Below, in pieces: positions 9,829 through 22,868 of a DNA stretch of 22,868 nt. Source of the DNA: a virus. Within the stretch, counting starts at the first letter, position 1; each line of letters begins with the position of its first letter. Where the stretch lies: IMG/VR virus record IMGVR_UViG_3300035698_002636, positions 1-22,868 of that record; one strand, written 5' to 3'. Both the position numbers and the translations under genes were made by a program. The notes beneath the pieces were generated by a model. The model had not been told where the DNA came from, made no database searches, and saw only the letters and a list, made by a program, of their open reading frames with translations.

Positions 9829-10092
9829 ATGACAAATACAAATGTAGAAGCCGTTGAAGTACTCCCTCAAGCTGGAACTGATTTAGCTGGTTATAGATTA
9901 GGTTATGTAGATAGTGGAGCGAAAGCTGCACAAAACGATACTTGGACTATACTAGGAGCTGATACTGTTTTATTAGCTTGGCCAACTCTTGACGCAACTG
10001 GAGCTTCAGAATTATACACCGTAGCAACGAATGTTATCACTCTAAAAGGTGCGACAGGAACTGCTTGTAGTGCATTAATTTTGTATAAATGA
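9829..10092 (+). CDS. probable decoration protein, pair A copy 1
   Basis: An 87-aa, beta-rich protein preceded by GAGGTAAAAAAAT. Its last 75 residues are about 60% identical (45 of 75 by hand count) to the next gene, sharing AWPT, DATGASE, NVITL and the C-terminal TACSALILYK. No catalytic or membrane features. Small beta proteins just after the major capsid gene are typically capsid decoration or stabilising proteins, so that is the likely role; it is inferred from position. It lies between two oligo-T runs, in a cluster that may be transcribed separately. Confidence 0.75.
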   Translation: MTNTNVEAVEVLPQAGTDLAGYRLGYVDSGAKAAQNDTWTILGADTVLLAWPTLDATGASELYTVATNVITLKGATGTACSALILYK

Positions 10093-10102
10093 GGTGTAAT
10101 AA

Positions 10103-10372
10103 ATGGTAGTAGTAAATGTAGATGTGAACTGTGTCCAAATATTTCCTCAAGGTGGAGCTAATAATAAAGGTTTCAAATTAGGTTACATTGATAGTGGTGA
10201 TAAAGGAAAAGCTGATGATACTTGGACTGTAAAAAATGCAGTTGAAGTTATAATGGCTTGGCCAACTGTTGATGCAACTGGAGCTAGTGAAGTATACACA
10301 ATATCAGGAAATGTAATTACGTTAGCAAGTGTTGCGACAACTGCTTGTAGTGCATTAATATTATATAAATAA
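10103..10372 (+). CDS. probable decoration protein, pair A copy 2
   Basis: An 89-aa tandem paralogue of the previous gene, 10 bases downstream, with its own GAGGTG ribosome binding site. The N-terminal dozen residues differ most between the copies, while the C-terminal half is nearly fixed. Two diverged copies suggest that both are kept and may form different capsid positions or a hetero-oligomer. Confidence 0.75.
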   Translation: MVVVNVDVNCVQIFPQGGANNKGFKLGYIDSGDKGKADDTWTVKNAVEVIMAWPTVDATGASEVYTISGNVITLASVATTACSALILYK

Positions 10373-10393
10373 AATTAACGAGGTAACAAAAAA

Positions 10394-10711
10394 ATGACAG
10401 CAACATCAATATTAAAACAATGGGAAGTAGCTCCTAATGCAGGTTTAAAATCTGTTTTATTCACTACTCCGAATACTGCTGACGCAGGAAATACTTTAGA
10501 AATAACTTTAACAGATTATGGAATTGCAGCAACAGGATTACTAGTAGTAGAATCTTGGGTTCATACTACTGACGGAAGCGTTATTACAACTGAATTAAAT
10601 ACTTGTGCTGTAAGTTCAGGTGTTCTAACAGTTACAGTAGTTGCTGGAACTGATAATGATATGAGAGTTATCCAAGTAATTGGAAGAGCTGACGCTGGAG
10701 TGTTTGCATAA
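10394..10711 (+). CDS. probable decoration protein, pair B copy 1
   Basis: A 105-aa protein preceded by AATTAACGAGGTAA. It begins MTATSILKQWE and reads as beta strands with many Thr, Val and Ala. It is about 57% identical (60 of 105 by hand count) to the next gene with no gaps. SWVHTTDGSVITT is fully shared. It is not clearly related to pair A by sequence, although all four are small beta proteins in one cluster. A virion decoration or head-fibre base role is inferred from position. Confidence 0.75.
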   Translation: MTATSILKQWEVAPNAGLKSVLFTTPNTADAGNTLEITLTDYGIAATGLLVVESWVHTTDGSVITTELNTCAVSSGVLTVTVVAGTDNDMRVIQVIGRADAGVFA

Positions 10712-10712
10712 A

Positions 10713-11030
10713 ATGACAGCAACTAGTATTTTACAGTCTTGGGAACAAGTACCTAATAATGGATTAAAAACTATTATTTTTCAGACTCCAAATACTACTG
10801 ACGAGAACGATACTTTTACAGTTGATTTAACTGCTAACGGAATTAGTGCTACTGGACTTCTTACTATTAGAAGTTGGGTTCACACTACTGACGGAAGCGT
10901 TATTACAACTGATATTGCGACTTGTTCAGTAACAAATGGAACTGCAACTATAACTGTTCAGTCTGCTAATGCTAATTCAACTAGAGTTGTTGAATTAACT
11001 GGTAGAGCAACACTTGGAGTGTTTGCATAA
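10713..11030 (+). CDS. probable decoration protein, pair B copy 2
   Basis: A 105-aa tandem paralogue of the previous gene. The frame is open upstream to 10680, but the true start is ATG 10713, one base after the preceding stop, because from here the protein aligns residue for residue with copy 1 (MTATSIL in both). There is no separate ribosome binding site, so translation is probably coupled. An oligo-T terminator follows the stop. Confidence 0.78.
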   Translation: MTATSILQSWEQVPNNGLKTIIFQTPNTTDENDTFTVDLTANGISATGLLTIRSWVHTTDGSVITTDIATCSVTNGTATITVQSANANSTRVVELTGRATLGVFA

Positions 11031-11083: not shown

Positions 11084-11341
11084 ATGGCTATGACAACAAA
11101 TACGGAAAGTGAAATAATTACTTCTCAACCACATGGTAAAGATGATCCTATTGGTGAGATTAGAGCAGATGCTGAAGGGAAATTATATGTTTACATTCCT
11201 GAAGTAAAAGAAGTTAAAGAAAAGAAATCTAAGAAAGTTAAAGATGAAATTAATATGGATTTAAATGGTGATGGAGTTGTTGATATAAAGGATGTTTCTA
11301 TTGCTGCGAAAGTTATGAGAAGAGTGAGGAATAAAAAATGA
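11084..11341 (+). CDS. small virion protein with dockerin-like calcium loop
   Basis: An 85-aa protein with a strong GAGGT ribosome binding site. Residues about 22-39 (IGEIRADAEGKLYVYIPE) form a beta segment; residues 41-55 are Lys/Glu-rich; residues 59-70 are a complete EF-hand-type loop (DLNGDGVVDIKD) with ligands at positions 1, 3, 5, 9 and 12, followed by a helix (VSIAAKVM). This is the type I dockerin half-repeat pattern, in which loop plus helix binds calcium. Only one repeat is present, whereas true dockerins have two. It overlaps the next gene by ATGA. A calcium-stabilised structural or attachment role is plausible but not shown. Confidence 0.7.
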   Translation: MAMTTNTESEIITSQPHGKDDPIGEIRADAEGKLYVYIPEVKEVKEKKSKKVKDEINMDLNGDGVVDIKDVSIAAKVMRRVRNKK

Positions 11342-19424: not shown

Positions 19425-20288
19425 ATGGAAGAAAACATAACAGTAAGAATTGATGGTGGAATTGGTAGAAATATCGCTGCAACAGTAATGCTTAGGAATC
19501 TTAAAAAAGAAAATCCTAACTCAAATATAAATATTGTTTGTAGTCATCCAAGTATTTTTAAATTTAATCCTAACATTAAGAAAGCTTATCCTTTGAACAA
19601 TGCGTTTTTATGGGATGATGTAATTAAAGGAACTGAATATCTTACTCCTGAACCTTACACTAATTATAATTATTATGAGAAAGGAGAACATATATCTAAA
19701 GTGTTTTGTGATGAAATAAAGGTAGGTTGTGATAGTAAGAAGCCTGACTTATTTTTTACTGAGAAAGAAATACAAGGTGCTAATAAGTTTTTGATGGATC
19801 AAAAGAAAGAAGTAGTATTGTTTCAACCGTTTGGTCAAACAAATCAGACTGATGAAATGTATCGTGATTTAACTTTTGAGTTTGCTCAAAAAATGGTTAA
19901 TGCTTTACTTAAAGAGGGTTATGCTGTTATTCAAATTAGTGCTGAAGACCAACAACCACTTAAAGGAGCTACAAAACTAAAGGTAGGTTTAAGACCGTTA
20001 ATGGCTTTGATTAGTAATTGTAAGGCTGTGATTGGTGTTGATAGTTTTTTACAACACGCAAGTAATTCTTTTGGAAAGAACACTATTGTATTTTGGGGTG
20101 GAACTGATGAGGGAAGAGTAGGTTATAAAGAGCACACTAATATTCGTGCTGTTAAAATTAAAGAACATTTCCCTATAAGGATGGAGCATAATGTTCCTGA
20201 TGGTTTTCATAGTAATCAAGGGGTTAATGGAAAGTTTGATGATGAACATATTAATAAAGTTTTAAAGGTGATTAAAGATGGCAGATGA
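19425..20288 (+). CDS. glycosyltransferase, GT9/heptosyltransferase-like
   Basis: A 287-aa protein of GT-B type. The N-terminal RIDGGIGRNIAATVMLRNLK (residues 8-27) corresponds to the glycine-rich acceptor-side loop of GT9 enzymes; VVLFQPFGQT (130-139) starts the second domain; AVIGVDSFLQHASNSFGKNT (201-220) is the characteristic nucleotide-sugar site, followed by IVFWGGTDEGRVGY. GT9 enzymes add heptose or similar sugars to lipid or protein acceptors. The gene lies within the tail/adhesion block and overlaps the fibre-like gene by 11 bases, so it may glycosylate a virion protein or alter the host surface (inference). No ribosome binding site is visible before ATG 19425. Confidence 0.75.
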   Translation: MEENITVRIDGGIGRNIAATVMLRNLKKENPNSNINIVCSHPSIFKFNPNIKKAYPLNNAFLWDDVIKGTEYLTPEPYTNYNYYEKGEHISKVFCDEIKVGCDSKKPDLFFTEKEIQGANKFLMDQKKEVVLFQPFGQTNQTDEMYRDLTFEFAQKMVNALLKEGYAVIQISAEDQQPLKGATKLKVGLRPLMALISNCKAVIGVDSFLQHASNSFGKNTIVFWGGTDEGRVGYKEHTNIRAVKIKEHFPIRMEHNVPDGFHSNQGVNGKFDDEHINKVLKVIKDGR

Positions 20289-21327
20289 AAATGAGTTCCC
20301 AAAAAGTGATGGTGATGTATATTATGCGAGTGAAGTTAATAAGATTAGTTTTAATAACACTACTGGTGTTAATGAAGTAGCTATGGAGGGTTTAGCTGCA
20401 CAATTTTGTGCTGGTATAACTCCTATAACTAAAACTTATATGGATTCTGAAATATTTACGGATGCTGATGGTTATAATAGTAAGGTTGATACAACTAATA
20501 CAACAGCAGTTTATGATGGGTCTAATTTGACTGGTAGATATTTTGAAATGTCTAAGAATATTTATGATGTTTGGGATACTAGTATTGATTTAAATAAATG
20601 GAGTTGTTTCCAACAGGTTGGTGAAGCTTGTGTTTGTGAAAGTGTAGCTGGTATTTATTTATATGGTAGTAGAAATGGAAGCACTAATGGTTATGGTTGT
20701 GTTACAAGTTTGTGTGATACTTTTACGGAAGATGGTGATAGTGTTTATTTTTGTATAGCTGCAAGTACTCAGTCTTATGGAGGTGGTGCTACTAGTTATG
20801 CTTATGTTAAATATGGTGATACTGCTCTGATGTCTATTGGAAGTAATCAGTCTTGTAGTGGTTTCTTTAGACTAAACAAAGTTAATAGTGTTTGTTATGA
20901 TTTATACAAGAGTGGAACTTGCTTATGCCAAGTAACACCAACTGGAACTGACTGGTTATTCAACGCTGGTAGTAGTGGTAGTGGTAGTCTTGATAGTACT
21001 GGAACTATGAGATTATATGACTTTTTTACAAGTACTAACGGTGGTAGTAGTTCAAGTGTTTATGCTGTTAGTAAAGATTTTACAGACAATGTTAATATGG
21101 TTTATGCAAGTGCAGATAAAAATGCTCCAACTGGAACTTGTGTTACTTATGATGTTTTGAAAGCAAGTGATTGTAGTACTATTAGTTCGTGTACTCCAAT
21201 AAATAATTATGCAGATACTAGTGGTGGTAATACTAGTGATATTATTGTTAAATATAATTTGTGTAGTAATTATAAAGATACTTGTGTTTGTATGAATAAA
21301 TTTGCGTATAGTGTGAAAACGGAATAA
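20278..21327 (+). CDS. Cys-rich fibre-like / receptor-binding candidate
   Basis: A 349-aa protein with GGTGA before ATG 20278. It is rich in Ser, Thr, Gly, Asn and Tyr, and reads as many beta strands. It has 17 Cys, including three CxC motifs (ACVCES, TCLCQV, TCVCMN). The centre (SCFQQVGEACVCES through DSVYFCIAAS and FFRLNKVNSVCYDLYKSG) has the strand pattern of a jelly-roll/lectin-like domain, often found in tail fibres. Cys richness suggests disulfides and therefore an extracellular place. It follows the hub and overlaps the glycosyltransferase gene. Receptor binding is inferred from position and composition. Confidence 0.6.
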   Translation: MADENEFPKSDGDVYYASEVNKISFNNTTGVNEVAMEGLAAQFCAGITPITKTYMDSEIFTDADGYNSKVDTTNTTAVYDGSNLTGRYFEMSKNIYDVWDTSIDLNKWSCFQQVGEACVCESVAGIYLYGSRNGSTNGYGCVTSLCDTFTEDGDSVYFCIAASTQSYGGGATSYAYVKYGDTALMSIGSNQSCSGFFRLNKVNSVCYDLYKSGTCLCQVTPTGTDWLFNAGSSGSGSLDSTGTMRLYDFFTSTNGGSSSSVYAVSKDFTDNVNMVYASADKNAPTGTCVTYDVLKASDCSTISSCTPINNYADTSGGNTSDIIVKYNLCSNYKDTCVCMNKFAYSVKTE

Positions 21328-21332
21328 AAAAA

Positions 21333-21959
21333 ATGATGTTAAGTAATGAATTTGCAGATAAGTTGATGGGTGTATTGTTTAAGAATGTAGACCAGTCTAG
21401 TTGGATGAGAACTTTTTATAGTTATTGTATTGATAGTAAGTATAGAAAGTATGCTAGGCTTGATAAGTTTTTGAAAGACCAAATAACTAATTATGCTATT
21501 AGATATGTTTTAGAAGAAGAAGCTGAGAATATTCCTGAGCGTAAGAATTATGATTTGCAAATTGTTGAAATATTAAAGTATGTTAAAAAGAATTATGCTT
21601 ATGTTCTTGATAAATACAATTATGGTAGTGAGGAAATGTGGGCTACTGCTGATAAGATTATTGGTAAGAAGAAAGATGATTGTGATGGCTTGAACAGTTT
21701 GGTTTATTTGTTAGCTAGGATTAAAGGTATTCCTAGTTATATGTTGTATAATGCGATTGGTGATGTGAATGGTGGGGGACATTATTGGTTGTTATATTTT
21801 AGTCCTACTACTGGTTTGTTATATCCTATTGATGCTACTTATTGGGTGTCGTTTATGGATATTCCTAGTAGGAGTGTGTTTAAGTTTACTAAGAGTAAGT
21901 ATCATAGTATTTGGTATTTGTTTAATGAGAATAGAATATTTAAGACGAGGTCTGAATGA
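21333..21959 (+). CDS. transglutaminase-like cysteine enzyme
   Basis: A 208-aa protein with a complete transglutaminase-type triad in order: Cys117 in KKDDCDGLNSLVYLLARIKG, His150 in GGGHYWLLYF and Asp167 in YPIDATYW. The first 110 residues are helical. This superfamily (bacterial-type Cys proteases and related amidases) cleaves or crosslinks amide bonds. In a tail/entry block it could act on envelope proteins or cell-wall-like peptides, or process a virion protein. No signal peptide is visible. ATG 21333 and 21336 are both possible starts, with only a weak ribosome binding site. Confidence 0.78.
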   Translation: MMLSNEFADKLMGVLFKNVDQSSWMRTFYSYCIDSKYRKYARLDKFLKDQITNYAIRYVLEEEAENIPERKNYDLQIVEILKYVKKNYAYVLDKYNYGSEEMWATADKIIGKKKDDCDGLNSLVYLLARIKGIPSYMLYNAIGDVNGGGHYWLLYFSPTTGLLYPIDATYWVSFMDIPSRSVFKFTKSKYHSIWYLFNENRIFKTRSE

Positions 21960-22216
21960 GGGGATGTACGGAAGAAGAGTTTGCAGTAGTAAAAGATAAT
22001 GTTCACGAAATGAAGGGTGACATTAAATCTTTAGTGAAAGTTATTACTATTGGAAATGGTAAGCCTAGTTTATTATCTCGTATTGATTCATTGGAAAATC
22101 AAACTAAATGGATTCCAACTATTTTAACTTGGATGAATAAAAGCAAGGGTATGATTGCGTTAATAAGTTTTTTAGGTATGGGGGGAATTTTTGCTTTAAT
22201 TAGGACATTTGTATAA
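21956..22216 (+). CDS. coiled-coil plus C-terminal membrane protein (XhlA-like)
   Basis: An 86-aa protein starting in ATGA overlap with GAGGT just upstream. Residues 5-50 are a charged helix with the phrase GNGKPSLLSRIDSLE, similar to a motif common in small phage membrane proteins; residues 66-84 are a single hydrophobic segment (MIALISFLGMGGIFALIRTF). The layout of coiled coil plus C-terminal membrane helix matches XhlA/holin-accessory proteins. A part in lysis or envelope anchoring is likely but unproven. Confidence 0.7.
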   Translation: MRGCTEEEFAVVKDNVHEMKGDIKSLVKVITIGNGKPSLLSRIDSLENQTKWIPTILTWMNKSKGMIALISFLGMGGIFALIRTFV

Positions 22217-22868
22217 TGGGAACTAAAGGTAGTAAACGGATTACGGCAGACCGAGTTAAGAAATGGTTACTTAGTTATGGCTCTAGTTTACTTCCAGTTA
22301 TAGGACTTATAGGTTTTATGATTTTCTTAAATGCAATTACTTTAACTGGTTATAGTGGGGATAGTACTTGTGCTGGAACTATTGATGACCCTTGTATTGC
22401 GTTTGTTAATTTTACTGCTAATACTGATATATTTATTTATCCTAGTGATGAATGGGGTTTGACGACGAGTGAGCCTTTGAAGTCCTTGAAGTTATATCGT
22501 AGGTGGGATACTCGGTGGGGTGAATCTTATCGTGAGCTTAAACTAAATGAAACTTGCAAGAGTACTGCGTGTGGTGGAAAAAGAGGAGCTACTGATAATT
22601 CTTATAGTTATGCGTTTAGAAAAGGTAAGAGTTATAGTTTGAAATATGTTGCTATGAAGTTTAATCCTAGTGATGATGTTAAATGGTGGGTTGATGATTT
22701 GAATGTTCCTGATCCAGTATGGTATGGTGTTGGTAATGATGGTTCTGATTCTTTTAATATTCCTAAGACTTATTATAAGACTGTTCTTAATGCTAATGTT
22801 CTTGAGCGTACTGGTGAGGTTGCTGATTATAATTTAAGCATTACTAATACAAGTTATAGAAAAGTTAA
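22216..22868 (+). CDS. membrane-anchored Cys-containing protein (partial, runs off end)
   Basis: ATG 22216 overlaps the previous TAA (TAATG) and the frame is open to the last base (217 codons seen). A basic N-terminus (GTKGSKRITADRVKKW) is followed by one membrane segment (LLPVIGLIGFMIFLNAITL, residues about 22-40), then a large, probably external domain with CAGTIDDPC and CKSTAC pairs and many aromatic residues (KLYRRWDTRW, VKWWVDD). The orientation suggests N-terminus inside, Cys-bearing domain outside. From memory the external part resembles proteins of uncultivated archaea and their viruses; I cannot verify this. It may be a membrane-bound virion or surface protein. Confidence 0.7.
   Translation, partial: MGTKGSKRITADRVKKWLLSYGSSLLPVIGLIGFMIFLNAITLTGYSGDSTCAGTIDDPCIAFVNFTANTDIFIYPSDEWGLTTSEPLKSLKLYRRWDTRWGESYRELKLNETCKSTACGGKRGATDNSYSYAFRKGKSYSLKYVAMKFNPSDDVKWWVDDLNVPDPVWYGVGNDGSDSFNIPKTYYKTVLNANVLERTGEVADYNLSITNTSYRKV

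Follow-up and report, generated by a model that had tools for sequence, protein, structure and literature searches.

The DNA analyzed here (the window) is a linear piece of viral sequence from IMG/VR, 22868 bases long and ending where the record ends, and the segment of interest is the end of the late (tail) operon of a tailed virus. The window also encodes a terminase, portal, prohead protease, SU10-type capsid protein, tail tube, tape measure, and hub. Three genes make up the segment (Table 1): a transglutaminase-fold enzyme (TG), a small membrane protein of 86 residues, and a membrane-anchored protein (ANCHOR). As described from the letters alone in an earlier note on this DNA, the genes overlap tightly, and the ORF coordinates place an ATGA between TG and the 86-aa gene (21956-21959) and a TAATG between the latter and ANCHOR (22214-22218). 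No fetched record continues the window past 22868; L004 is a near-identical fragment of only 10 kb that starts inside the gene for MCP.

Table 1. Features at the end of the late operon (window coordinates).
Feature	Position	Strand	Basis
TG: transglutaminase-fold, LapG-like cysteine peptidase, 208 aa, without signal peptide	21333..21959	+	Pfam, 43-row alignment, AF2
Cys117 codon, catalytic; homologous site carries an intein in L072 and L066/L069	21681..21683	+	43/43
His150 codon, catalytic	21780..21782	+	43/43
Asp167 codon, catalytic	21831..21833	+	42/43
86-aa coil + C-terminal TM protein, possible holin-type partner	21956..22216	+	ORF, homologues
ANCHOR: N-terminal TM, Cys-containing domain, ectodomain; 217 aa, no stop, cut by the record end	22216..22868	+	
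ANCHOR TM helix, about residues 25-43	22288..22344	+	topology

TG matches Pfam Transglut_core (PF01841) above the gathering score (28.6 versus 23 bits, E 1.8e-6). Its family consists of cysteine peptidases of transglutaminase fold encoded by uncultured viruses. A scan of viral contigs with the single sequence returned zero relatives, and only an alignment-based scan worked, recovering 51 viral loci. Five family members, as well as ANCHOR and MCP, gave no tblastn match in 50,697 phage records, and the window protein matched no NCBIfam model. The Cys117/His150/Asp167 triad, which had been called intact in the window, is conserved across the alignment: D116, C117, and H150 are invariant in 43 of 43 aligned sequences, position 118 is E or D in all 43, and D167 is kept in 42. 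Two different LAGLIDADG-type inteins occupy the same site in TG genes (L072:1265-2941; L066:1324-2895, also L069:2808-4379). The first, in the 558-aa L072 gene, matches intein N- and C-terminal models, and the second, in the 523-aa L066/L069 gene, matches Intein_splicing (4e-11). Both end immediately ahead of the catalytic Cys, which is therefore also the first extein residue, and the convergence of two different inteins exactly on this residue argues for a conserved active site. A hydrophobic, signal-peptide-like N-terminus was seen in one of 49 family members, which is not the TG of the window. The family tree has an unresolved backbone, with the divergent window TG on a long branch.

The fold and catalytic type of TG are already known. 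An AlphaFold model (AF2; pLDDT 90.9) is closest to LapG by Foldseek and by VIA-align (Z 13.0-13.7), and LapG is also the top solved relative by sequence profile (8e-16 and 1.4e-11). LapG is a surface-protein protease that releases anchored adhesins. TG resembles LapG/BTLCP enzymes (Peptidase_C93) in profile, fold, and Cys-His-Asp triad, as well as in having its Cys flanked by acidic residues; in DvhG, a LapG-family enzyme, the flanking acidic residues form a calcium site, and both these and the Cys are needed for activity (PMC13090378). We infer that TG is probably a peptidase, rather than an enzyme of some other activity, and probably calcium-dependent. TG is nevertheless not classed here as a LapG member, as it scores under the curated cut-off of the LapG/BTLCP profile (PF06035; 13.4 versus 27 bits) and carries no export signal. 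It also differs in being virus-encoded, in a late operon, with no LapD-type receptor seen and with a neighbor that lacks the AAG substrate site: the LapG-type cleavage site, [TAP]AAG, is absent from the ANCHOR proteins of both the window and L072.

A second comparison is with PeiW and PeiP, the pseudomurein endoisopeptidases of methanogen viruses, which are lytic enzymes of archaeal viruses. TG shares their transglutaminase-type Cys-His-Asp triad and may be of their fold class, yet it stands farther from them (VIA-align Z 8.3 for PeiW and 8.9 for PeiP, near the general transglutaminase-fold rows) than from LapG, and Pfam reported no other domain in the window TG, for instance no repeat that would bind a cell wall. 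Pseudomurein is not known from DPANN archaea.

TG genes usually come after hub and fiber genes, and they are enriched upstream of small membrane genes. With the loci clustered at 50% identity, 14 of 32 TG clusters have a small TM-containing gene (45-135 aa) in the same orientation no more than two genes downstream, as compared with eight of 171 other genes at the same loci (odds ratio 15.8, p 5e-8); the pattern is missing from 18 of the 32 loci, and the gene calls (longest ORF) and TM calls (hydropathy) behind these counts are crude. In the window, this position is held by the 86-aa protein, a short coil followed by one C-terminal TM segment from about residue 63, with homologues 59% identical in L062 and a positional counterpart in L072. 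The protein had been called XhlA-like, a description that covers only its coil-plus-TM architecture: Pfam XhlA (PF10779) gives E 0.45 and 11.2 bits against a cut-off of 34.7, and the profile matches neither of two homologues, so we rejected XhlA membership. The arrangement is nonetheless reminiscent of holin-endolysin cassettes such as xhlA-xhlB-xlyA of PBSX, i.e., a late position after the tail genes and a soluble enzyme without signal peptide beside a small TM protein. It departs from them in that TG has a protease-type fold and is not a peptidoglycan hydrolase; the 86-aa protein is a putative holin whose homology to XhlA is not significant.

According to a survey of viral lytic proteins from 2025, endolysins are most often amidases (24%) or muramidases (23%) (PMC12596118). 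Neither Amidase_2 nor Phage_lysozyme occurs in the 50 TG-bearing virus records (~1.76 Mb as the sum of listed lengths), a whole-record search that comprised these two models; both did match control bacterial genomes. Using the wider list of Pfam families, no peptidoglycan hydrolase was found among 89 genes flanking TG, nor, for 25 of the 27 families, among 90 genes of four long TG records. The earlier remark that no bacterial-type muramidase, amidase, or endopeptidase is visible also agrees with a Pfam scan of the 20 window proteins, none of which is a bacterial cell-wall hydrolase.

The hosts are probably DPANN (Nanoarchaeota-type) archaea, which are tiny and have no peptidoglycan. Relatives of the MCP profile, at about E 1e-160, occur in two of 371 Nanoarchaeota genomes, in one case on a 36-kb virus contig whose portal, protease, and terminase match as well. 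An ANCHOR-bearing record (G045) encodes a TCP-1/cpn60-family chaperonin (L158:5186-6592) that appears by eye to be of the archaeal group II type. Together with a Nanoarchaeota homologue of ANCHOR described below, these MCP relatives and the chaperonin support DPANN hosts; the assignment rests on binned contigs, in which virus contigs can be misplaced, and on one chromosomal homologue. A CRISPR comparison of 20 kb of the window with the 371 Nanoarchaeota genomes gave no clear spacer, the matches being mostly low-complexity or in the capsid gene. TG-related domains are present in 133 of the 371 genomes, the best two matches being proteins of 734-747 aa that are encoded on DPANN chromosomes and show no obvious signal peptide.

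The third gene is of a different nature. ANCHOR has no Pfam match and no confident PDB match to its fold (best sequence-profile E 0.3). The single membrane anchor, external domain, and Cys pairs first noticed in the window protein are confirmed by topology and a 13-row alignment of viral sequences, all of which begin with a common domain that contains a single TM helix and invariant cysteines at 52/60 and 114/119. The window helix is N-in/C-out by charge, and in 12 of 12 proteins tested the sequence before the helix is more positive than that after it. Beyond this shared domain, the ectodomains vary (laminin-G type lectin, MAM, CBM96, DUF2341, and FGE-type), reaching 2143 aa. In most ANCHOR proteins, the density of N-x-S/T sequons is about 2-3 times that of shuffled sequence; the enrichment is weaker in a few, among them the L081 protein (1.07 versus 0.84) and the truncated window protein (1.84 versus 0.97), and little or none is seen in hub, tape measure, and capsid proteins.

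The anchor domain has a single match in GTDB contigs, on a chromosomal Nanoarchaeota contig (L169) that also carries FtsZ, SecE, and Spt5. The protein (L169:3090-4280) joins the ANCHOR N-terminal domain to an Exo_endo_phos (DNase I-like) nuclease (Pfam 1.4e-12), as if a DPANN archaeon kept this nuclease anchored at its surface. It is likewise comparable to MnuA-type membrane nucleases, which are membrane-anchored Exo_endo_phos enzymes, but its score against the MnuA model (1.5e-6) is far under the cut-off, and the viral proteins bear lectin-like domains instead. The best reading of the ANCHOR domain is that it serves DPANN archaea and their viruses as a module for display at the cell surface. 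The viral protein looks like a display protein, not an enzyme of lysis or entry, and is probably exposed on the infected archaeal cell. One family member (L165:13205-17308) ends in an FGE-sulfatase-type domain. The FGE-type fold is often diversified by DGRs, an idea we rejected here, as no reverse transcriptase was found in 20 records, including that of L165.

The earlier note took the three genes for one functional set, a view that comparison with related records does not sustain. Among ANCHOR-bearing records, TG is found only in the window and in G019, and G019 is the one other record with all three genes in this order. The closest relative, G002 (95% MCP identity), carries the coil/TM and ANCHOR genes with no TG between the collar-type fibers and the coil/TM gene. 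The single three-gene unit is thus rejected: the genes form two modules, a TG module and a separate ANCHOR family. Replacement of a classical lysis system in a host without peptidoglycan, which had been proposed for all three genes, fits TG, with its intact active site, its lysis-like slot, the absence of two endolysin families, and the Nanoarchaeota link, but it does not extend to ANCHOR.

We propose, with a probability of about 0.5, that TG and the coil/TM protein are a protease-based lysis pair of DPANN-archaea viruses, with ANCHOR as a separate display protein. TG, a Cys-His-Asp peptidase that is probably calcium-dependent, would be made in the cytoplasm without a signal peptide. Its overlapping partner most likely completes a holin-plus-protease pair, opening or permeabilizing the membrane late in infection. 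TG would then take the role of a peptidoglycan endolysin by cleaving the proteinaceous envelope, either the S-layer itself or the anchors that hold it. ANCHOR would act apart from this pair as another late protein, its anchor domain presenting at the surface of the infected cell a large ectodomain that is probably N-glycosylated. The substrate of TG, the holin role of the 86-aa protein, and the choice of lysis over entry are all inferred.

The most serious competitor, which we consider rather doubtful, places TG in the virion as a tail-tip or fiber-associated protease that opens the host surface layer at entry, leaving the coil/TM gene as an ordinary late gene. TG directly follows the hub and fibers, its domain forms part of large, repeat-rich proteins that resemble tail components in L134 (1077 aa) and L137 (722 aa), and the relatives L080 and L073 have coiled-coil N-termini. 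Against this, stand-alone TG genes are strongly enriched for small downstream TM neighbors, a trait of lysis genes, and the searches for the two commonest endolysin families gave no alternative lysis enzyme. Lysis is favored over entry rather than proved because of the L134 and L137 fusions, the lack of TG in G002, and the chromosomal relatives.

Two other roles are less likely than either lysis or entry. TG could work inside the cell, for example in the maturation or cross-linking of fibers or in changing host proteins, which would account for its missing export signal and sits well with the Cys-rich fiber next door and the signal-less chromosomal DPANN relatives; we regard this as unlikely, given that it explains neither the small TM genes downstream nor the absence of common endolysins. 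Least probable is a LapG-like protease that sheds anchored surface proteins, ANCHOR included, and in this way governs how the infected archaeal cell adheres. LapG, the solved protein nearest to TG, is indeed a releaser of adhesins, and ANCHOR, a surface protein held by its N-terminus and bearing lectin-like domains in relatives, lies together with TG in the window and G019, but the two are otherwise apart, TG has no signal peptide, and LapG-type cutting of ANCHOR was rejected for lack of the cleavage site in the window and L072 proteins.

How tailed viruses exit from archaea that have only a protein S-layer is a largely open question. Holins combined with proteolytic enzymes were raised as a hypothesis for such archaea in a 2015 review, which also noted that in vivo tests were still lacking for every predicted archaeal holin (PMC4456609). 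The 2025 survey covers Pei of methanogen viruses, pyramid proteins (PVAP), and structure-based candidates, and the words transglutaminase and DPANN are absent from its main text (PMC12596118). What is new here is a large uncultured viral TG family in a lysis-like slot and linked to DPANN archaea, in addition to the anchor domain. In about 50 uncultured virus records, the family offers a defined candidate enzyme with an active site and a membrane partner; if the lysis reading holds, it may supply the enzyme, missing so far, by which the protein coats of archaea are opened. More tentatively, it is possible that DPANN, and perhaps other S-layer archaea, are lysed by a viral holin-like coil/TM protein acting with a LapG-type, calcium-dependent protease that cuts the S-layer. 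This would amount to an archaeal counterpart of holin-endolysin lysis across a large group of uncultured viruses, some of which would also display glycosylated lectin-like proteins on infected cells. The ANCHOR domain, in turn, is a handle on what such viruses place on the surface of small archaea.

Several other genes were noted in the course of the analysis. Tail-fiber-like repeat proteins with a signal-peptide-like hydrophobic N-terminus are found in structural modules (L081:9838-11037, L165:10157-13195, and L200:1621-4155), those of L081 and L165 being enriched in sequons. In the window, the fiber-like protein at 20278-21327 has 17 Cys in 349 aa (4.9%), as compared with at most 2.6% in other window proteins longer than 100 aa. 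A glycosyltransferase family 9-like gene (19425-20288; Pfam 1.4e-6, phrog_8954 3e-21) lies between the hub and fiber genes. Directly after the capsid gene, at 9829-11030, are small genes in two pairs of tandem duplicates (87/89 aa and 105/116 aa), which may encode decoration proteins, and at 11084-11341 an 85-aa protein has, by eye, a single C-terminal dockerin/EF-hand-like motif (DLNGDGVVDIKDVSIAAKVM).
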